A DNA stretch of 43,822 nt from a virus, in the IMG/VR virus record IMGVR_UViG_3300045125_000070, positions 1 through 43,822 of that record, one strand, 5' to 3'. Shown here piece after piece: positions 11,978 through 40,150 of the stretch (within the stretch, counting starts at the first letter, position 1; the number at the start of each line of letters is the position of its first letter). The position numbers were made by a program, and so were the translations under genes. The notes beneath the pieces were generated by a model. That model was given only the letters and a program-made list of their open reading frames with translations, was not told the DNA's origin and made no database searches.

Positions 11978-14900
11978 CTAGTTAGCAGACCCATAACGCT
12001 GTTTAAGCGCTTGGCAATACGCTCCAGTCCCGCCCGCTTGCACACGGATTCCGCGATCGCTTACAATCCGTAGCAATAAATTAACGTCTCCGTTAGCCGG
12101 TGTGCCCGAAGTTGCTAAAAGTCACCGCACTAAAGTGTGGTGAAGTAATAGTCGGAGAAGTGGCGAGTACCGCATCACCCGTTCCCGTGACATTAGTCCA
12201 CGCCATCACCCCTGCCGTTGAACTCTTCAGCAGGTAGTCATTACCTGCCGGTGCAGCCGTGGGCAAGGTAAAGGTTGTCGTTGCTGAAGTCGTACCCGCT
12301 TGCAGGTATAGGCGATTACCGTTAGTGGCGTTCATAAACAACGCCTTGCCCGTTACCGCGCTTTCCTGACCCAATTTCAGATTTTGCGCCCCTACGCCGG
12401 GAATGCGTAGCAACATTTTCTGCTCAGTACTATCCCTGAAGACGCCAAGGCTGGAAGGTCAACGGCAAACCCAAAGCTGGTTTCGTAGTACTGTTTTGGC
12501 TGTTCCCCAGCCACCAGAAACGGTACAGCCTGAGAGTGAATTGGCTGGCTATTTGCCCACGTACCGCCACCCAGCATCAAAGTATTAGACGCATCCCAGA
12601 ATCCTGCCGGTGTCGTCCCCCGCCAGCATTATCAAAACCTGCTCCAGCAAAGTCGTACTTAAGAGCAATATGACTGATAGCAGCAGGGGATGATAGAAAG
12701 CTATTGCCGGAAATAGAACCAAACCGCGAATTCTCTTTCAGACGTATGCCGTAGGTACCAAAATCCTCGATATTATTATTGAGCAGCGGTCCACGGTAAT
12801 ACGAAGTACCGTCTATGGCCACGATGGTTGGCCCGTTATTTGTAGGTGCCGCCGCTAAGGTAATTGTATTAGCATTGACGTTGATAGAAGAGACTGTAGT
12901 AAACAGATTGACGCCACTAGATGTTCCGTTGGTAATGTAAACCCCGTTACCCACTTCAAAATCAGCAGCATTAGTTACATTAGCCAAAGTGGCGTTGCCC
13001 GATGTCATTACCGCGCCTGATGATGCGCCGTCCGATCGTTCCGAGTACGGTAGTACCGGTATTAGTTGAGGCGTTAAGCAGTGTCACTGTATTACCCGCA
13101 ACGTTTACCGCCGTCACAACCGTTCGCAGGTGTACACCGCTGGACACGCCATTCGTCAGGATAACCTCATCGCCGGGATTAAACCCGCCTCCTGACGCCA
13201 CACTTGTCCAGTTGGGTATTGCCGGACGCCATCGTTGCCGTAGCGGTAACGTATTTTTGCCCAAACAACCCCCAAAACGCGCTACTTGCACTATCAGGGG
13301 CCATTCCGTTATTGGACATCAACATCGCACCGGCAGCACGAATACGGAATCCTACGCGCCACGCCTCTACCGTCTTTACGTAGTTGTTCAGGAGCGTAAC
13401 CGTGTTTGACCCGCCTAGTGCGCCAATATCAATATGGTCTTCTCCTACCTCGTCAGTCGTGACGCGCTCAATAATACCGCTAAAGATGTATGGGATATTT
13501 AACGCATCCTGACGGCTAGTCAATTAGGGACAAGTTTTCAAACTTGAACTCTGACAAGTAGGAGTTGGTATCCTTGATGTAAATGCAGTGACCGCTTGTT
13601 CCGACTGCCTTACCAGCACCGCGAACCCTAAATCCCGAAGATTCAATCCGTATCCGTAAGCAGGCGTGGTTACGTTAATGACGTTGTAGTTGGAACCACG
13701 AGCCTTGATAATACTGCGATATGGCCCGTACGCCCTCAATAATTAGCCCATTCACGTTAGCGGTAATTGCGTCGGTATTATACGTGCCAGTAGGAAGGTA
13801 AAGCGTCTTCCCGCCTGACGCCTGAGCCGCTGCAATAGCCGCCACAAGGCAAGCTGTATCGTTTGTCCCGTTATCAGCAAGGTCGCAGCCGTAGTCAGCC
13901 GCATTCACCGCCTGACGCACACCGTAAGAGTTGGGCTGATACAGTGAAACAATACGCCAATCGCCGGTAGAGTCCGCCCTCAGAACCAAGGCCTCTTTGT
14001 TCCGGCTCATCACATACGAGGATACCCCGTTAATCGTGCCACCTCCTGCCGTATTGATGGTCACATTATTGGTCACTGCACTGCCAATATCCTTGATAGT
14101 GATTACATCGGACACCTGATAGTTTCCGGCCCAAGGAATAGTGATAGTGCAAGCTGAACCGCAATTAGCCTCGATGCAGCGCACCCCCGGCCCCGTTAAA
14201 GCAGTAGTAGCCGTTACCGTTATCTTTTCGGCTAAACTGTCAGCCCGCGCTAAGTACCCCACGGCAGAGGCGGTTGAGTTGTAGAAAGTGCTGATTCGGT
14301 CGGGACTACCCGCTGTCACGATTTCAGGCCCCCTGCCAAGCGTCTGCAACGGAGGAATGCCGTTAGAGTGAATTGCCTGACTGTTCGCATACGAAGACGC
14401 CTTGTTTTGTGAACTGTACGCTGTCTTCGACGTACCCCCGCATAATCAGCTCAGAAAAGTAATCAACCCCGTTGTTGGCCAAATCAAACTGAATAGCCTT
14501 ACCCGTACTAATACCGGAGTTGTCCATCTGCACCGTGGTCTGGCCACGCAGACTGACAGTAGAGCCGTAGTACGACACCACGCCATATGCCACCCAGCTC
14601 TCAAGGTTGCAATCAATGCAGGTAAACTTGGCAACCCCGTTTGACCCGTCTACCGCCGCTTTCTTACCAACAACGGCCCAGGCTGACCCGCCAATCACGT
14701 TGTTGACGCCGTTACAGCCACGGCAGGTAAACTCACCCGCCTTGATACGAAAACCCGTCGTCTCCCCACTGCGGGGCCGTAGACGGTGAAGCCCCGGTCT
14801 GGGATGTCCGGAGCAGGCCAACGTAAATCTTGTCAAATACGTTCTGCGGCATAGTGGCCGCGTCGTACAATACCGGAAAGCCCTGATTATTGGATATGTA

Positions 14901-16200
14901 CAGGTCACTAAACATCGAGCTGTACGTCCTGCCCACGAACAAGCCGTCACCACCCGTATCAAGGATGTCTACGCTATCAACGCGCACGTTAAAGATGGAC
15001 GCGTCGTCAGTTACGTACAAACCAGTCTGTGACGTTCCAGATGTCACTGTTCCTGTAATACCGACCTGCTTTAGCGTTGGGCCGGTAAAAATGTACGCGC
15101 CAGCACCTTCAACTAGGGAGACTATTGCGGCGTTTGTAGCCGACTTGATGATGCTTCGATTGCGGCCATCACCTATAACCGTCACCCCGCCAGGAATAGA
15201 CAAGCCAGAGACGTTGTACACTCCGGTGGGGACATATACCGTCTTGCCCCCTGCCGCCGCAGCCGCGTTAATGGCGGACTGAAAGCAGGTCTGGTCAACC
15301 GAACCGCCATCGTCATCGGGATCACAATTGTAATCTGTAACAATATTGATGGCCTGCGGGGTTCCCCGGTCGTCAAAATAGAAGCGTTGCTAATAGTCAG
15401 CCCGGTTCCAACCGTCAAACACGCAGGCTGATTGCCTGTTACAGCGTAATAAATCATCTGCCCGGTAGAGCAGGGCTAGTAACCGGGCGTCTATCTGGGC
15501 CTTCGTGTACGCCTCGTTGGCAGGCGGCACTATTGCCGGGGGCTATTGAACTGACACAACGCCGTCCAGCTTGTTGGTGTTACCGGCGGAACCCGAAACT
15601 GGTCAGCGCAGGCATATATCTGTATCAAGGCTATTATCAGGCCGGTAGAAGGCCGCCGTGTATCGAGCCTGATTTGTTGGCCCTACGGCGTCCGTTGTGG
15701 CGTCGATAACCAGCTCAGGAATGTACAGCGTGCGAACACCGCTAACCGTGATAACCGAGGGCTCCATATCGCTTATACCAAGCTCCCGTACCCGGTGTAC
15801 CGGGCTGCACGATATAGGTCTTCCCAAGGGGTTGAAAAGCCCGGTCAGCATATATGCGGTATTCAACATACGGATGCCACACCACGGTCGCCGGGGAAGT
15901 CTCGGGACAGCCCCCGGTAAGAGTAGCCTGCGACGTGCTATCCACGTTTTTAACGTAGTAGTTCTGGACTCCAACCGTGATATAAAAGCCCCCCATACCT
16001 ACCCATTGCGGCCGAAAGCAAGCCGCACAGGTCAGTAGGGCATTAGTTCCGTTTGTGACCGTCACTCCGGTAAGGGTGACAGCCGACTGCAAGCCCGTTG
16101 GATTAAAATTGGGCTGCGTAGTTGCGCCAATCGTTACATCCGTAGCTTTTGCGGAAACAGTTAAGCATAAGGCTATAAAAGCAATCTTAATAAATCGCAT
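11978..16200 (-). CDS. tail spike with signal-peptide-like N-terminus and two pectate-lyase-type beta-helix modules (frameshifted)
   Basis: The ATG at 16200 has CGGAGAA upstream. The first residues, MRFIKIAFIALCLTVSAKA, look exactly like a Sec signal peptide. A repeated head domain follows (VTLTGVTVTNGTNALLTC; VYIPEL-like strands), then AYTKAQIDARL, typical of phage fibre linkers. Module 1 reads DYNCDPDDDGGSVDQTCF, AINAAAAAGGKTVYVPTGVY, then GVTVIGDGRNRSIIKS. Module 2, about 400 residues later, reads ADYGCDLADNGTNDTACLVA and AQASGGKTLYLPTGTYNTDA. Both match the start of pectate-lyase superfamily beta-helices used by phage depolymerase spikes. Further on are two copies of a beta repeat (GDEVILTNGVSSGVHLRTVV and GNGVYITNGTSSGVNLFTTV), then a fibre-like tail ending CQALKQRYGSAN. 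About 1405 residues across at least eight indels. Likely binds or degrades a host surface polysaccharide. Confidence 0.7.
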
Positions 16201-16240: not shown

Positions 16241-16778
16241 CTACCCGTAATAGTACGACCCGCTACTGCTAGGGGCACGCCCGCCAGACGAACCCAAACC
16301 TGACCCCGGTTTGCTTCCCATTCCTTGCAATAACCCGCTCCCAACACTGCCAGCACCCTGAATGATGCTTCTCCAGATGCTTTCAGTTGGGGCACTGAGT
16401 ATACCCTGTCGTCTGACTAGTAAGAGGTCTGCCGATGGTCATCTGCGCCAAGGCCAACCGTCGCATGAAATTGTTCTGCAACGCATTGTTGGCTGCTTCA
16501 GAGAGCTGCGCTCCGTATTGTTGCGTCCCCATCATGTTTTCCATTCCAGACATAATTCGACGCGACACGTTTGGCATTCTTTGACCGTAAGCCGTACTTG
16601 CCTGCTGTTGCGCCATTTGTTGCTGCCGGTCAGAGACGGCCTGCATTCCAGGAGACATCGATTCAGGCATCTCCGGCATACCGCGCAATGCCTGCGTATC
16701 CTGAGTTTCGCTTGGTCGCCATTCCTGATACCGAGTGGTCTGCTCTGCTGGCAACTTCATCGGTTTAGCTTTTCCCAT
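16241..16778 (-). CDS. small Gln/Met-rich structural protein, paralogue 2 (frameshifted)
   Basis: The protein starts MGKAKPMKLPAEQTTRYQEW. It shares its first ten residues exactly with the gene at 17258-17722 (MGKAKPMKLP), and also the downstream pattern NNFMRRLALAQMTIGRPL versus ANFARRMQLAEMTLGRPL. The continuous frame stops early (16383). The next frame gives SAPTESIWRSIIQGAGSVGS, matching SAPTTSVWGDIIRTGAQIAG of the paralogue, so one indel is inferred and the real end is at 16241 (about 178 residues). The C-terminus is Gly/Ser-rich. The AAAGGATA site precedes the ATG. The protein resembles small virion proteins with a hydrophobic glycine-rich tail; its function is unknown. Confidence 0.65.
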
Positions 16779-16793
16779 AACGGTATCCTTTGT

Positions 16794-17258
16794 TTATAAG
16801 TCTGCTAGTAAAAAGTCTTCTATTTCTGCCCTAATTACTAAAAACAACAGGTACAGGAAAAACACCGTACCACTAACAGCGTTGTCTCCAATAAGGGCAA
16901 AACCTAAATAACGAATGGAAAACCCCAGATATCCGGGATGGTCACAGTACTTATATAAACCCGTTGTAACCCTGTACGGCGGAGCAACCAAATCACCTCG
17001 AAAAAAGGGGTTATCGTGCAACGACTTAAGGGCAACGCACGTCCCCAAAACAATTAGACCAACGCCTCCCGTGACCCGCCATAGAGTTAAGGGACTGCTC
17101 CAAAACGCCCCAATACACGTAGCAACCATCAGCACCCACGGCACGTATTTAGCCTTACCTTCATCTCGCTTGTACGTTGCCAGAACATGTTGAGGGGCCA
17201 TAAACACGTTTACTGCTAATACTGCCAGCCACAAGCCGCCCGTTAAAAGTACTACCAT
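16794..17258 (-). CDS. isoprenylcysteine carboxyl methyltransferase/PEMT-like membrane methyltransferase
   Basis: The start ATG at 17258 overlaps the TAA of the upstream gene (TAATG), giving 154 residues in one intact frame. There are about five hydrophobic segments: LLTGGLWLAVLAVNVFMA, YVPWVLMVATCIGAFWSS, GGVGLIVLGTCVALKSL, YLGFSIRYLGFALIGD and VSGTVFFLYLLFLVIRAEIE. The signature is YRVTTGLYKYCDHPGYLGFS followed by RAEIEDFLL. This corresponds to G.Y....HP.Y.G and R...E..L of the ICMT/PEMT (isoprenylcysteine carboxyl methyltransferase and phospholipid methyltransferase) superfamily, which uses S-adenosylmethionine at the membrane. The arginine usually before HP is aspartate here. It lies inside a phage structural operon, between two paralogous small genes, so it looks like an acquired accessory gene. 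The substrate (lipid, protein or small thiol) cannot be predicted. Confidence 0.65.
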   Translation of the reverse strand: MVVLLTGGLWLAVLAVNVFMAPQHVLATYKRDEGKAKYVPWVLMVATCIGAFWSSPLTLWRVTGGVGLIVLGTCVALKSLHDNPFFRGDLVAPPYRVTTGLYKYCDHPGYLGFSIRYLGFALIGDNAVSGTVFFLYLLFLVIRAEIEDFLLADL

Positions 17259-17722
17259 TACACCCCCGACGCCGCAGCGGCTCCAGCTATTTGCGCCCCG
17301 GTACGTATGATATCGCCCCAAACGCTTGTAGTTGGCGCAGAATCGTAACCTGATACGCGAGCGCTAAGTGGTCGGCCCAAGGTCATCTCAGCCAATTGCA
17401 TTCTACGGGCAAAATTGGCTTGATTAGCATCGTACGCAGCTTGCCCTGTCAAAGCACCGTAGTCCTGCTGCAACCCACGCTGTTCACGCGCCTGTAGTGC
17501 CTGCCGAGTCTCCTCAGGAACACCGGTGCCATACGCATTTCCCCATCGCTGCCGTGACAACTCCTGTGCCCGTCCGTACTGTGCCCCAAGAGCGGGTGCA
17601 AGAGATTGTGGCATTACTGGCATATCCCTTACGGCTTGAATATCAGGCGTATTAGTAGGTGCCCATTCCTGATATTCGTAGTTCCGCTCGCTTGGCAGCT
17701 TCATTGGCTTCGCTTTACCCAT
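17258..17722 (-). CDS. small structural protein, paralogue 1
   Basis: An intact frame of 154 residues beginning MGKAKPMKLPSERNYEYQEW, Gln/Arg-rich in the middle (LSRQRWGNAYGTGVPEETRQ), then ANFARRMQLAEMTLGRPLSA. It ends in a hydrophobic Ala/Gly tail (IIRTGAQIAGAAAASGV). It is paralogous to the gene at 16241-16778. Its ATG overlaps the last codons of the GNAT-like gene upstream, and its stop overlaps the start of the membrane methyltransferase gene downstream, so the three are translationally coupled. The glycine/alanine tail could interact with a membrane. Function unknown. Confidence 0.7.
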   Translation of the reverse strand: MGKAKPMKLPSERNYEYQEWAPTNTPDIQAVRDMPVMPQSLAPALGAQYGRAQELSRQRWGNAYGTGVPEETRQALQAREQRGLQQDYGALTGQAAYDANQANFARRMQLAEMTLGRPLSARVSGYDSAPTTSVWGDIIRTGAQIAGAAAASGV

Positions 17723-18181
17723 TTGGCAACCTCGTCAATACAACCCATTCATCATTCCGAGTCTGCTCGACAAACCCGGCAGCTTTTGCCACCCTGATAG
17801 CGGCGCGATTCTTGACCTCAATTTCCGCCTTTAGCCCTACAGCTCCCAACTCAAGCAGGCGGTCAGCAAACTGACGCGCATACAAATACGTCACCGTCGG
17901 GTGTATCGTATGACGTGGGACGTTGGCGTGAACCGCTAACCAACCATCACCGTCATCCTGAGCCTGAAACAGGGCTACAATCTTATCGTTCCACGTTACC
18001 CCCAGTTAATCTCATACACTGGCTGGCCAAACTCTATAACCTCGCTAGGCACAAGGACTCGCGTCGAAAACGTCTGAGACAATAAAGGTAGATAATATTT
18101 TCGGGCTATTTCACTGCCCGTTCCAACACCAAAAGCATTGCGACTTACCGCTAAAGACAGTTCTACGTCAGGTCTAGCCAT
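17715..18181 (-). CDS. GNAT-like N-acetyltransferase domain protein (one frameshift)
   Basis: The ATG at 18181 has a GGAGG site (TTGGAGGTATCTATG). The first frame gives MARPDVELSLAVSRNAFGVG and then SEIARKYYLPLLSQTFSTRV, and ends at INWG near 17997. The neighbouring frame continues without a gap as VTWNDKIVALFQAQDDGDGW, RQFADRLLELGAVGLKAEIE and VKNRAAIRVAKAAGFVEQTR, and stops at 17715. Joined, this is about 155 residues, the normal length for a GNAT. The N.aai...ak.aGF pattern near the end is typical of the GNAT fold's last helix-strand; the R/QxxGxG/A acetyl-CoA loop is not clear. The single indel lies near 17999-18000. The identification is tentative; the substrate is unknown. Confidence 0.5.
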
Positions 18182-18765
18182 AGATACCTCCAATCGTTAG
18201 AGCCGTCATTGACGGCGCTAGTGGTCAGATTTGCGAGGAACACCTTAACGGTGTCCGTAGCCGATACTTCGCAGCCGCCAAAAACCAACCCAGCGTCTAG
18301 GGCGTTAGGAGGCTGCAAAATCACAATATCACCTGTCGCTACCCCGGTAAGCGTTACATCTACAGAGCCGCGACTACTCGCGGATATACTACCGGGGTCT
18401 ATACTTAAAGTTCCGGTGGCCGTGTTTTTGATAATCGGCCCTCCCCCAATCTTCAGGTCGCCGAACGTGCCCTGATTAGTAATGTTCAGGCTGCTAAACG
18501 TTGGCGACCCGGAAGACTGGAGGTTTTGCGGCAGGGTCGCGGTCAGCGTGTCACCACTGAACGCTAAACCCGCGCCATTTGCATCACCGGCAACATTCTT
18601 GGGAGAAGGGTTGCCCCCAGCGTCAAATCCTACAATTTGCGCCGTTGTGCCCGTAGCACCGATAGTCCCGACATTCGCCGCTGCCTGCTGCGCGGTCTGC
18701 TCTGCCGCTTGCGCCCCGCCTTGCAGGTAATCGTAATCATAAATGTCGATACCGTAATAACTCAT
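18163..18765 (-). CDS. short fibre-like/virion protein
   Basis: An intact frame of 200 residues. Its ATG overlaps the stop of the propeller gene (ATGA). The N-terminus MSYYGIDIYDYDYLQGGAQA is aromatic, followed by an Ala/Gln helix (AEQTAQQAAANVGT). The rest resembles phage fibre shafts: GDTLTATLPQNLQSSGSPTF, SLNITNQGTFGDLKIGGGPI, TGTLSIDPGSISASSRGSVD. The C-terminal 70 residues look globular and beta-rich (GDIVILQPPNALDAGLVFGG). The 'LQSSGSPTF..L' repeat style is typical of tail-fibre and chaperone-bearing proteins. It probably attaches to the tail near the propeller-like protein. No enzymatic motif is seen. Confidence 0.65.
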   Translation of the reverse strand: MSYYGIDIYDYDYLQGGAQAAEQTAQQAAANVGTIGATGTTAQIVGFDAGGNPSPKNVAGDANGAGLAFSGDTLTATLPQNLQSSGSPTFSSLNITNQGTFGDLKIGGGPIIKNTATGTLSIDPGSISASSRGSVDVTLTGVATGDIVILQPPNALDAGLVFGGCEVSATDTVKVFLANLTTSAVNDGSNDWRYLWLDLT

Positions 18766-28235: not shown

Positions 28236-30717
28236 CTACCCCATTTGGCTGAGGACGGGGTGTTCCTTCTTTGGTTGCCTGCTCCCTGTCTTCCCTAGGG
28301 GGCGGGCATTTCCGCTTTCCGGCTTCTGTTCGTCTTGCGGCCCCATCAGGGCAGGCTCTCCAGCCATTCCAAGCGCTCCGCCTATCTGGGCTTCCATCAT
28401 CATTCCCTGCAAGTGTGCCGCAATCATCGCCTTAACTCCCGACCGTAACATGGGGTCAGCGGCAATCCCGGCATCGGTTGTTAACCAGTCCCTCAAATAG
28501 TTGATGCTGGCCTGATGGCCAAGCTCCTCCACCTCAATCGGCGGGGTAAAGACCTGTAAAAGCATCTGACCCATTTCCGCCATCGGGTCTACCGGAGTTT
28601 CTATCATTTCACCCGTCATCGGGTCAGCGGTCATCTGCGTAGGTGGTAGCGATGTTGCCATCTGTGCCAGCATTGGCAGCGCCTCCTTCCATCTGACGGA
28701 TACGTAGCTGAGCCACCTCAACGACGTTACTGAAATCGTCACTACCGAGGTCTACGTCGTACAGCTCGGAAAGCTGTTCAATCAGGGAGGGCATCTGGTC
28801 TATCGCCATTTTCAGGCCCGGCAAACCACCAACGTCCATTAGCAATGCTCGCCATCTTTGCCGACGCTCGAGGTTAGTCTGAGGTAAGTATGACTCGGGA
28901 ACAACCTCAGCAAACAAGTCACCATCTATATCCGCCTCACTAAACCACTGCCCTTTTACCTCGCCTCGTTTGCCAGCCAGATGCACAAAGGTTTCCTGAT
29001 AGGTGTGATCCCTAAACAGTCGCAGAAGGATTTCCGCTCCCCGCCTGTCCACGTCCGCTTTAAGGGCCAACTGCGGCCCGAACAAGCTCTGGCTGGTAGC
29101 CTGCGCAATTTCAGCCCCCGTCGCTGTCTCATTATTGACTCCCGGCAACCCGCCTGAAAAATCCGTAACCCGACTAGCTTTCTGCATAAAGTAGTCAAGT
29201 TGTTGGGCAAAGCTAAAGTGCTGCCCCGTCGGAGGCTGCGGTTGCAGCTGATGCACAGCGTTTTGCAATGTTGCCCCGTCTAGTGCTGACAGGTTAACGG
29301 GTATGTTTTGGAGTGAGCCAAGATAACTGGACACACCGTTAGGTAGTAAGCGTTCATCGAAGAGCGTTGCGGGCATAGCGGATGTTCGCAGTTGTGTGTA
29401 TATAATCGACATAATGAGGTTGTATTGGCGTTGTCCCTCAACCATGTCTTCAATGCCCGTTCCGAGGCTTGAAATTGCTCGCATCCGGTACACCTGACCC
29501 ACGAAAAAGTCCTTGTGATGCTCATTTCGTAGCTCTACACACCCTTCTACGCCCTGAATCCATGCACTGTACATACCTTTTGGAAACAGTTCTATAAGAG
29601 GCGTTCCGGCCGGTATATCCATCCCCGTGACCGTGCGGAACGGCTGACTCAGGGACAAGTTGGCGTACATAGCAGGGTCTAGCCATACCTGAATATAATC
29701 AATAACCGGCTCATTCAGGCCTGTATCGGTTTTTACGTAAGCAGACGGAGCGCCAAAAGTGCTATTGCGTAGAGCTTCCTCAGCGTCCAGACCAGAATCG
29801 TCACTCTTGCTTGCCCTCAATTTCAGTTCGGGATATTGAGCCTCCAACAAGCTTAATCTGACCCGTCGTTTGCGTATCAGGAAAGGACTTTCCTGCGGCG
29901 ACTTACCGAGATCGTGTTTAAGTTCAAACGCGGGGATAGATTCAACAACAATATCGCCTATATTCTTTTCTTCATACCCCGTAACGGTTTCAACCTCCAA
30001 CGGCTCTGCTGGCTCGATTTCAATAAAAGGCGAACCGCACGCCGGGCAGGCCGGATTGCCATCCGGAGCTGTCTGCAGCTCTGATTCCGTCCCGCCGTCT
30101 CCGCATTCCGCGCACATCCACGCAGATTCACCAAACTGTATCTGCTGCGTATCAGTAATTGGAAACCGGCCCGTCCGCTCCGCCTCTTCGCTGTAATAAT
30201 AGTACCGGCAATACTTGCCACATTGGGCCATCATAGCCTCGGTCTGCAGAAAGGTCGGCGTATACAGCTTTCGCTTGTAATAATCGTGAACCATTGTGGC
30301 GACCTTTGCCGCCCCGGTGGACTGGTCGGAATCGTTAGAAGCTCTCCATATTACGTCTGTTTGAGACTGCGCCCACTTGGCCTTAATGCTGTCAGAGTAA
30401 AACCCTAGAACGTTGTAGGCGTATACAGGCTCATCGGTCTGACGGGGCAGGGGCACGGCTCGCCAACCTCGGCCGTAGTTGGATTGACGGAGCAGCTGTT
30501 TGCCCTCAATCATCAAGAATATCATCTGCCACAAGAGCCGCTGATTGCGCCAAATGTCGGCGTTTTCGTCTTCTAATTGCTGCTTGATTTCCTTAAACCA
30601 GTCAGGCTTTACCTGCACCGTGCGATCACGGGCCTTGTCGGCGATATTTTGCTGCAATGGATTAGCAGGAGACAGGTTGTCCCCGCTAGCATTGCTTTCT
30701 AATGTAAAAGGTTTCAT
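28236..30717 (-). CDS. portal protein with an internal zinc ribbon (one frameshift near C-terminus)
   Basis: The ATG at 30717 overlaps the preceding stop (ATATGA), with TAGGAG five bases before. The 697-residue open frame contains DIWRNQRLLWQMIFLMIEGK, VYAYNVLGFYSDSIKAKWAQ, IWRASNDSDQSTGAAKVATM, HHKDFFVGQVYRMRAISSLG, GQRQYNLIMSIIYTQLRTSA and NNETATGAEIAQATSQSLFG, a pattern usual for large podovirus-like portals. Cysteines at residues about 202, 205, 224 and 227 (MCAEC and PACPACG) form a CxxC...CxxC zinc ribbon. After an indel near 28680 the next frame gives MLAQMATSLPPTQMTADPMT and ends at 28236, so the true protein is about 826 residues with a Met/Gln-rich C-terminal tail. It forms the dodecameric DNA channel at one capsid vertex. 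Confidence 0.75.
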
Positions 30718-34600: not shown

Positions 34601-35411
34601 GACCCCGGGTAACAACAAACCCTTCCTGATTGACGGAAATATTCTCCGAAACCAAACCTAAAACGTCGGTTGAATTGGGTTCGCTATTACCCTGTGCAAG
34701 GCTAACCCCTAGTCTTTGGCCTTGCGCCTGACTTACTCTGACAACCTGATAATTACTTGCTAGCAGGTTGGAGCCGGTTTGTTTCACCACCCTAGCCGTG
34801 TCGCGCTGGCCTATCGGGAGCAATACGTTGCCCCCTTTTAATGTAACAGCTAAAGTCCCGTCTGTGTCATCCCAAATAAGCCGCGCAGCGGCGTTTGCGC
34901 CGGAAGGGGTAGTGTCAAAATCGATTCCGCCAACATTTCCTACTACCGCATTAGCGGAATCGTGAGTGATTGGTGATACCGCAATATCTCCCGCGCCGTC
35001 ACTAACAATCACCCGATTTGTACTAAGCGAAGCCATTCGTGACCACGCGATATCCGTTCCTGTACCTAGCTTAGTCTCAAGGGCAATGATTGCTGCGGAT
35101 TGCACATTATGGGATGCAGCCGTAATGACCTGACGGACAGCCGTCATATCAGTATGAGAAGCTGCCGTTGTTCCCTCAATTCCGCGAACTGCACCGGTTA
35201 ACGAGTTGCCAACCTCACCGGTATAGCTTAAAAGCTCCGCGTCTATAGCGACTATCCCTGAAGCCGCAAATTCGGTTGCGTCCATTACCGGTATGGTAGT
35301 AACGGACGCATCAATATTACCGCTTAGCTGGTCTGCGGCATTGTTAGCGGCTTCAACAAGCTCAACGGGTGTATCAAGACTGGTAGGGTAATTACTAGAT
35401 CCTACTGCCAT
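31606..35411 (-). CDS. tail fibre protein, about 1268 residues (frameshifted)
   Basis: The ATG at 35411 overlaps the stop of the gene before (TAATGG). The N-terminus reads MAVGSSNYPTSLDTPVELVE, then NNAADQLSGNIDASVTTIPV, AIDAELLSYTGEVGNSLTGA and AIIALETKLGTGT, a typical fibre attachment region. The shaft follows: DGDILYLSPTTAGG, VKITGTPAAGSLLIRNATTG, STPVNGDLWYNSASG, TYEQAATIRVQPGTTF and STFPWRD. The C-terminal domain reads NLLINGGMSLDRRENGYIAN, DDVYSFDRWYVLTQNTGCAV, EWTGTEDSVTSDVVSNWTST and LQLTNVQLEPGAS, a carbohydrate-binding-like fibre tip found in many phages. It ends QSVYIYAREAKT. Each switch between frames joins two halves of a known motif, so at least five indels are inferred and one gene is likely. 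Role: host receptor binding. Confidence 0.75.
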
Positions 35412-35858
35412 TAAGACCTCATAGGAATGTGAGCATTCCGGTATCGCTTTTCAGCTTCACTCCACAAACCGGGATACAGTTGTCTTACGTAATCCGCGCC
35501 CCGTCCCTTGCATATCCGGGTTCATGACTTCAACTTCTTCCATAATCGCATCTTCCCGGAAGGCTAATTCAATGAAATCGGGCTGTCTTATTTCAGGGTC
35601 GGGTATTTTGACTACCTGTTCACGCTCAATTAACGGGGAATAGCCCGCCTTGGTGAGCAATTTATCGATTAGTTGCTGCTCGCGAAGTCGGGTTTCTTTA
35701 ATTATGTCGTCTTGCCGCTGAAGTTGGGTGAAAAGCACCCTGATTAGCAAGCCAAGGACTAGCAAATGGCCAGCAATCAGGGTGAAAGTCAGCGAAATTC
35801 CCATCATCGGAGGTAACTCGTTATTACTGGGGAAGGAAACCAGCAAAAGTGGACTCAT
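35411..35858 (-). CDS. membrane-anchored coiled-coil protein, second copy (frameshifted C-terminus)
   Basis: A near copy of the gene at 36121-36567 (same MSPLLLVSFPSNNELPPMMG start), created by the tandem duplication. It keeps the transmembrane segment and coiled coil. One extra T near 35510 shifts the frame after NPDMQG, replacing the last 30 residues. If the extra base is a sequencing error, this copy is intact and ends at the TAATGG overlap with the fibre gene. Differences from the first copy include K/T and P/Q-type changes. Function unknown. Confidence 0.6.
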
Positions 35859-36121
35859 AGCCCGGTATCTGAGCCGCAATCCCTGTTGCCATTCCTGAGA
35901 TAGTCGTGTATCCGTGAGTTGAGGACAGCACACCGGCCAAAAAGCTCCGCGTCTATAGCGACTATCCCTGAAGCCGCAAATTCGGTTGCGTCCATTACCG
36001 GTATGGTAGTAACGGACGCATCAATATTACCGCTTAGCTGGTCTGCGGCATTGTTAGCGGCTTCAACAAGCTCAACGGGTGTATCAAGACTGGTAGGGTA
36101 ATTACTAGATTCTACTGCCAT
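35855..36121 (-). pseudogene. truncated fibre N-terminus fused to out-of-frame sequence
   Basis: This starts with TAATGG coupling like the real fibre gene and encodes the same first 60 residues (with MAVESS instead of MAVGSS). At the duplication junction (35941) it runs out of frame into the 3' end of the small gene copy (LFGRCAVLNSRIHDYLRN) and stops. The 88-residue hybrid has only the fibre attachment region. It could compete for attachment sites if translated, but is most simply a by-product of the duplication. Confidence 0.65.
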
Positions 36122-36567
36122 TAAGACCTCATAGGGGTGTGAGCATTGCGGTATCGCTTTTCAGCTTCACTCCACAAACCGGGATACAGTTGTCTTACGT
36201 AATCCGCGCCCCGTCCCTGCATATCCGGGTTCATGACTTCAACTTCTTCCATAATCGCGTCTTCCTGGAAGGCTAATTCAATGAAATCGGGCTGTCTTAT
36301 TTCAGGGTCGGGTATTGTGACTACCTGTTCACGCTCAATTAACGGAGAATAGCCCGACTTGGTGAGCAATTTATCGATTAGTTGCTGCTCGCGAAGTCGG
36401 GTTTCTTTAATTATGTCGTCTTGCCGCTGAAGTTGGGTGAAAAGCACCCTGATTAGCAAGCCAAAGACTAGCAAATGGCCAGCAATCAGGGTGAAAGTCA
36501 GCGAAATTCCCATCATCGGAGGTAACTCGTTATTACTGGGGAAGGAAACCAGCAAAAGTGGACTCAT
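36121..36567 (-). CDS. membrane-anchored coiled-coil protein, first copy
   Basis: The start at 36567 (MSPLLLVSFPSNNELPPMMG) overlaps the end of the upstream gene; a start at MMGISL is also possible. No clear ribosome binding site is seen, so coupling is likely. One transmembrane segment (LTFTLIAGHLLVFGLLIRVL) is followed by a charged coiled coil (QLQRQDDIIKETRLREQQLI) and an acidic tail (LAFQEDAIMEEVEVMNPDMQ). About 148 residues. The positive charges after the membrane segment suggest the C-terminus faces the cytoplasm, arguing against an Rz-type spanin. A holin-like or virion role is possible; I do not recognise a family. Confidence 0.6.
   Translation of the reverse strand: MSPLLLVSFPSNNELPPMMGISLTFTLIAGHLLVFGLLIRVLFTQLQRQDDIIKETRLREQQLIDKLLTKSGYSPLIEREQVVTIPDPEIRQPDFIELAFQEDAIMEEVEVMNPDMQGRGADYVRQLYPGLWSEAEKRYRNAHTPMRS

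Positions 36568-38459: not shown

Positions 38460-40150
<1,691 letters not shown>

Follow-up and report, generated by a model that had tools for sequence, protein, structure and literature searches.

The virus record analyzed here, all 43.8 kb of which is referred to as the window, carries a gene for an integral membrane protein of the ICMT/PEMT superfamily, which includes enzymes that methylate lipids or proteins bound to membranes (isoprenylcysteine carboxyl methyltransferase and phospholipid methyltransferase). The protein belongs to a branch of the superfamily that is specific to phages, conserved, and under selection, and its gene occupies a fixed slot after the gene of a short putative virion protein, which its start overlaps, and before the fibre genes. 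Judged by its sequence, the protein is best regarded as a variant of the superfamily that is new and specific to phages, and it is filed neither as ICMT nor as PEMT, because a tblastn search of 50,697 phage records with five ICMT-family queries returned no ICMT-type protein and because the one earlier claim, ORF51 of Edwardsiella phage eiAU, concerns a nuclease. ICMT was among the top BLAST hits of ORF51 as published (PMC3025963), and a literature search returned no phage ICMT or PEMT beyond this claim; the ORF (KF772233, 21522-22781) was rejected as a precedent, since its product is a DUF2800/PD-(D/E)XK nuclease and does not match ICMT. Despite the null result in the phage records, an ICMT/PEMT-type fold has kept one fixed late-gene position in phages that diverged very deeply, and an uncultured phage group is thereby seen to have a slot for enzymes next to a putative ejection protein. 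An active protein would offer a phage a direct route to change the chemistry of the host membrane; an inactive one would be a case of a virus re-using an intramembrane enzyme fold.

The gene lies on the minus strand, where an open frame of 154 codons runs from an ATG at 17258 to a stop at 16794 and contains GLYKYCDHPGYLG and RAEIEDFLL; the plus-strand translation is riddled with stops. The extent, the intact 154 residues, and the motifs given in the sequence-only reading were all reproduced, with the gene now assigned to the minus strand. The motif layout is G100-x-Y102, D106-H107-P108-G109-Y110-x-G112, and R143-x3-E147-D148, with L154 as the last residue. An alternative start, TTG at 17321 (175 aa), was set aside in favor of the ATG because the stretch before the ATG belongs, in a different frame, to the overlapping end of the upstream gene. 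The ATG shares 1 nt with the stop of that gene (TAA/ATG as TAATG, within GGGGGTGTAATGG), which agrees with the tight coupling to the preceding gene proposed earlier and suggests expression together with the structural operon. Placement inside that operon is likewise upheld by the PHROGs assignments of the major head protein and portal, by the pectate-lyase-like fibre downstream, and by retention of the slot in four phages (Table 1).

Table 1. Features of the window around the membrane-protein gene and in the structural module.
Feature	Position	Strand	Basis
ICMT/PEMT-superfamily integral membrane protein, 154 aa	16794..17258	-	Pfam, AlphaFold2 model, alignment
Putative virion/ejection protein, short and Q/A-rich (154 aa, MGKAKPMKLP...); immediately upstream of the membrane protein	17258..17722	-	
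Paralogue of the short protein, MGKAKPMKLPAEQ... (131 aa open); immediately downstream of the membrane protein	16383..16778	-	
GNAT-like acetyltransferase gene, frame-broken, upstream of the short protein; intact in L002:7152-7544	17718..18002	-	
Fibre gene, frame-broken, pectate-lyase-like; intact in L002:9020-12784 (1254 aa)	12060..16200	-	
200-aa protein of the same module, no assigned function; 82% to L002:6580-7182	18166..18765	-	
Major head protein phrog_14242; bait for finding phage relatives	25140..26402	-	PHROGs
Portal	28624-30717		PHROGs

The gene is real and conserved. A chance frame is unlikely because the product exceeds the Pfam PEMT and ICMT cut-offs, because a syntenic homologue 66% identical to it is found in a related phage with a dN/dS of 0.16, and because two further syntenic homologues are found at 23-27% identity. 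The dN/dS value (Nei-Gojobori, window versus L002) is a rough figure, since dS is high; set against values of 0.03-0.13 for neighbor genes in the same comparison, it indicates purifying selection, although with faster evolution than in the head and tail proteins. Truncation of the protein through a sequencing error was ruled out, the stop position being identical in L002 and within one residue in two distant phages. Many genes between 12060 and 24466 are frame-broken relative to L002, including those for the tail-tube protein, the GNAT-like protein, and the fibre, which is spread over several frames, and this suggests that the window assembly is error-rich. The earlier argument that an intact frame amid frameshifted neighbors marks a real gene reached the right conclusion about the gene and its neighbors, but intactness is weak evidence alone because the genes for the 232-aa, 191-aa, 200-aa, and short virion proteins are intact too.

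The closest relative, and the one found in the IMG/VR scan, is IMGVR_UViG_3300044635_001334 (L002), whose membrane protein is 66% identical over all 154 residues and whose gene has the same two neighbors and likewise a TAATG coupling. Ten distant matches were found among 297 sampled genomes of the phylum Acidobacteriota; one of them, contig 58 of G281 (30.5 kb; L050), additionally matches the L002 fibre-end protein. The L050 genes that were read are phage genes, comprising a head protein 31% identical to that of the window, tail genes, and a GNAT-like gene, which is followed by a 139-aa short protein, the 154-aa ICMT/PEMT protein (L050:18950-19414, ATGA overlap), and then fibres. A head-protein profile search yielded five further phage contigs, among them IMGVR_UViG_3300005937_000009 (L070), in which a membrane protein of 161 aa (L070:6887-7372) follows the short protein with a TGATG overlap. 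At 23-27% identity, the L050 and L070 proteins are far more diverged than that of L002, and all four carriers have a coupled start (TAATG in the window and L002, ATGA in L050, TGATG in L070).

In the relatives inspected, the gene order is a tail-tube-like protein, one or more small beta proteins, a GNAT-like protein, a short Q/A/G-rich protein, the slot, and fibre or other tail genes. BLAST recognizes the short protein preceding the slot in L002, L069, and L071-L073, and its counterparts in L050 and L070 were identified from their place in the gene order. The membrane protein fills the slot in four of the eight related phage contigs inspected, some of which are partial: the window, L002, L050, and L070. 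In L071 (10067-10726), the occupant is a PP-loop, PAPS-reductase-like protein (23.2 bits against a cut-off of 22.5), similar proteins fill the slot of L072 (8411-9064) and L073 (12842-13459), and the slot of L069 is empty. Pairwise BLAST indicates that these phages are mosaic: the L070 head is window-like (62%) and its tail is G281-like, with a tail-tube protein 47% identical to that of G281 and 27% to that of L002, and the slot membrane protein has been retained across this head/tail recombination. Since the slot holds a different enzyme in some sister phages and is empty in another, the patchy presence fits an accessory gene tied to its site rather than an essential virion part. Patchiness at a fixed site and replacement by unrelated genes are marks of a moron, and the gene shows both; a further mark of morons is an own promoter with expression outside the lytic programme, and here the overlapping start points instead to expression with the structural operon.

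In the window and L002, the membrane-protein gene is flanked by two paralogous short proteins. The second (L002:8478-9014) is approximately 46% identical to the upstream copy type, its C-terminal part runs on in another frame at 16319-16423 of the window, and it was not seen at the corresponding place in the two distant phages, L050 and L070. The L002 copy matches the Thoeris inhibitor Tad4 below threshold (17.7 bits against a cut-off of 25), and no such match was seen among the other short proteins. Furthermore, the GNAT-like gene is matched close to the cut-off by the GNAT Pfam model in the equivalent L069 gene (8628-9083).

Several approaches assign the protein to the ICMT/PEMT-superfamily fold, and the superfamily named in the sequence-only reading is thereby confirmed at the level of sequence profiles and predicted structure. 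Its best Pfam match is PEMT (PF04191; 36.3 bits against a cut-off of 25, E=8e-9, profile positions 1-97 of 105), followed by ICMT (PF04140; 31.7 bits against 24, E=2e-7), and the L002, L050, and L070 proteins likewise exceed the PEMT/ICMT cut-off. A profile consisting mostly of bacterial proteins matched the ICMT structures 4a2n (E=3e-28) and 5v7p (E=9e-20) in the PDB. An AlphaFold2 model built with 27 homologues (pLDDT 83.5, pTM 0.78; a model from two sequences, with pLDDT 53, was left unused) predicts five helices at residues 2-29, 35-52, 59-82, 108-124, and 127-152, and H107-P108 falls at the N-terminal start of helix 108-124, at the membrane-helix end where the HP motif is expected. Foldseek gave a TMq of 0.71 to 5v7p, with steroid reductases, the Ycf2-FtsHi subunit G, and a sterol reductase leading by E-value; because no row in the PDB or viral library reached E<0.001, the fold call rests on the family match and the TM-score. 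The leading rows, 3-oxo-5-alpha-steroid 4-dehydrogenase and delta14-sterol reductase (7bw1, 7c83, 4quv), share the fold class, but the window protein falls below the cut-off of the corresponding Pfam model (20.5 bits against 22.6). Reductases of this type use NADPH.

A family match to PEMT does not in itself specify a substrate. No NCBIfam equivalog model came near its cut-off, and the choice among phospholipid, isoprenylcysteine, and other substrates therefore lies beyond sequence: the model for protein-S-isoprenylcysteine O-methyltransferase (NF040696) gave 15.1 bits against an equivalog cut-off of 160, and that for MddA (NF045656), the best NCBIfam match of the L002 homologue, gave 11.8 bits against 270 (E=0.11) and was not among the NCBIfam matches of the window protein. 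Neither bacteria nor phages are known to use prenylated CaaX proteins. Among phage families, PHROG 26245, which has no assigned function, matches the L070 protein (E=1.7e-5) and, weakly, the window protein (E=0.002), and further members of the phage branch may lie within it.

The active site was compared by aligning the four phage proteins with 51 bacterial homologues. Residues G100, Y102, H107, P108, Y110, G112, E147, and L151 are retained in all phage members. The Arg of the RHP motif (position 106) is present in 51 of 51 bacterial proteins, a set found partly with a motif requiring R or D at this position and, for Acidobacteriota, without such a motif; the phages have D (window), D (L002), R (L070), and N (L050). 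The window protein thus departs from RHP-x-Y in having D for R and retains H, P, and Y. Position 148 is D or E in 50 of 51 bacterial proteins, and D in the window protein and N, T, or S in the other three phages. R143 is kept in three of four phage proteins and replaced by Q in L070, and the window protein has the complete R-x3-E-[DE] pattern on the last helix (R143, E147, D148). We take R163 and E167 of 4a2n, which would correspond to R143 and E147, to contribute to catalysis or cofactor binding. Finally, the C-terminal YxxY...P segment that follows E-x3-L in 50 of 51 bacterial homologues is missing in all four phage proteins, which have 2-3 residues past L151 compared with 16-24 in the bacterial homologues. 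The exception, L017, is the sole bacterial homologue without the segment and retains RHP and EE; because it stops at the same place, a short C-terminus alone does not imply lost function.

Compared with known systems, the protein resembles ICMT (PF04140; 4a2n from Methanosarcina acetivorans and the eukaryotic 5v7p/5vg9) in its helical membrane fold, in HP-x-Y-x-G, and in R-x3-E at the last helix, and differs in having DHP and in stopping right after E-D-F-L-L-A-D-L; the same motif departures separate it from PEMT. The bacterial "isoprenylcysteine carboxylmethyltransferase family proteins" (e.g., L007, L016, L025) are approximately 19-38% identical to it, best over the C-terminal two thirds, and they have RHP throughout and E[ED] with the C-terminal segment in nearly all cases. 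The earlier designation as a methyltransferase is therefore only partly supported: the superfamily, H107/P108, and R143-E147-D148 speak for it, whereas the RHP Arg and C-terminal segment are changed, and the second acidic residue is lost in the other three phages. Methyl transfer by the protein is possible on this evidence.

The four phage proteins group together in a 55-sequence tree, separate from their 51 bacterial relatives (support 95/98, with bootstrap not fully settled), and their clade has a long stem and a long branch. A search with the window protein and a two-row alignment found no close relative in genome contigs or viral contigs except L002, and plasmid matches reached just 36% identity over 38% of the length. 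Comparison with bacterial homologues, suggested earlier as a way to find the donor, thus identified none, and recent acquisition was rejected. Because the L050 relative lies in a genome of the Acidobacteriota sample, and because the fibre-end protein is matched in 11 of 297 genomes of that sample versus 0 of 289 in a Pseudomonadota sample, the host is probably a member of Acidobacteriota. The phages are uncultured viruses, probably of soil Acidobacteria, and the L050 contig could be a binned virus instead of a prophage.

The reading that we tentatively place first, while granting it somewhat less than an even chance, is an accessory, late, inner-membrane enzyme that modifies a lipid or lipid-linked substrate. 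Briefly, the protein would be made late in infection through translational re-initiation and would insert into the host inner membrane as a five-helix protein, where it may use S-adenosylmethionine to methylate a substrate embedded in the membrane, such as a phospholipid head group, an isoprenoid, or a lipid-linked envelope precursor. The producing phage would benefit from the changed envelope, most plausibly because superinfection is hindered or the envelope is tuned before lysis.

A rather unlikely but serious competitor is that the fold has been repurposed as a non-catalytic inner-membrane partner that acts by binding, for example as a superinfection-exclusion factor or as an anchor or docking site for the co-translated short virion (ejection-type) protein. 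The erosion at the RHP Arg, the second acidic residue, and the C-terminal segment affects exactly the columns nearly invariant in the bacterial enzymes, the phage clade sits on its long stem and branch, in all four phages the start overlaps the gene of that putative virion protein, and a related fold is found in 8xku_G, one subunit of the large Ycf2-FtsHi motor complex. Against this, a pure scaffold would not need H107, P108, Y110, E147, and, in three of four proteins, R143; sister phages place an enzyme in the slot; and the equally short L017 has RHP and EE. A little less likely still is its specific form, in which phages of one lineage, with probable Acidobacteriota hosts, converted a methyltransferase of the ICMT fold so that it serves their ejection or superinfection machinery as a dedicated membrane partner without catalysis, coupled in translation to a virion protein.

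It is improbable that an active enzyme acts on a virion component, be it the short protein, some other virion protein that is exported or lipid-linked, or a lipid associated with the virion. The adjoining, overlapping short-protein gene and the GNAT-like gene of the same module in the relatives inspected would suit such an activity, but the short protein has no obvious lipid attachment site on inspection, and L069 and L071-L073 have this protein without the membrane protein. The chances are similarly slim for a thiol- or quinol-type small-molecule methyltransferase that aids host metabolism during infection, as in MddA-like methanethiol methylation: the weak MddA match of the L002 homologue and the sulfur-type enzyme in the sister-phage slot point toward it, but the MddA score is far below its cut-off and no linked sulfur genes were seen. 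The motif erosion and patchy distribution might suggest a host gene that is decaying, or selectively neutral, and was trapped at a recombinogenic site, but this is very improbable given the open frame in four carriers, the dN/dS, and the same kind of start overlap and C-terminal end in all four.

Several further observations concern the fibres and other enzymes of these phages. The window fibre opens with a Sec-type signal peptide, MRFIKIAFIALCLTVSAKA followed by TDVT, and a crude detector found textbook Sec signal peptides, unusual for tail fibres, at the start of fibre-type proteins at L002:9020, L050:11315 and 17412, L070:12938 and 13971, L071:16705, L072:16024, and window 16200 (minus strand), an example being MRYLLFILLFFVLTGPALA followed by TDIT. 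The same detector found none in the fibre homologue at L069:5762, in a phage without the membrane protein. Adjoining that fibre is a 410-aa hydrophobic multi-pass protein (L069:4461-5693) that is GT-C glycosyltransferase-like by eye and has no convincing match in Pfam or NCBIfam. Downstream of the PP-loop slot protein, sister phages encode a hexapeptide acyltransferase and a protein that looks glycosyltransferase-like by eye. A direct duplication of approximately 580 nt at window 35230-36514 (98-99% identical, spacing approximately 710) repeats parts of a gene pair and is possibly an assembly artefact. Finally, window 39508-39900 and L070:17380-18012 are DNA methyltransferase-like by eye (DPPY / DPFMGSGT-type motifs), and the latter gene is placed inside the structural module of that relative.
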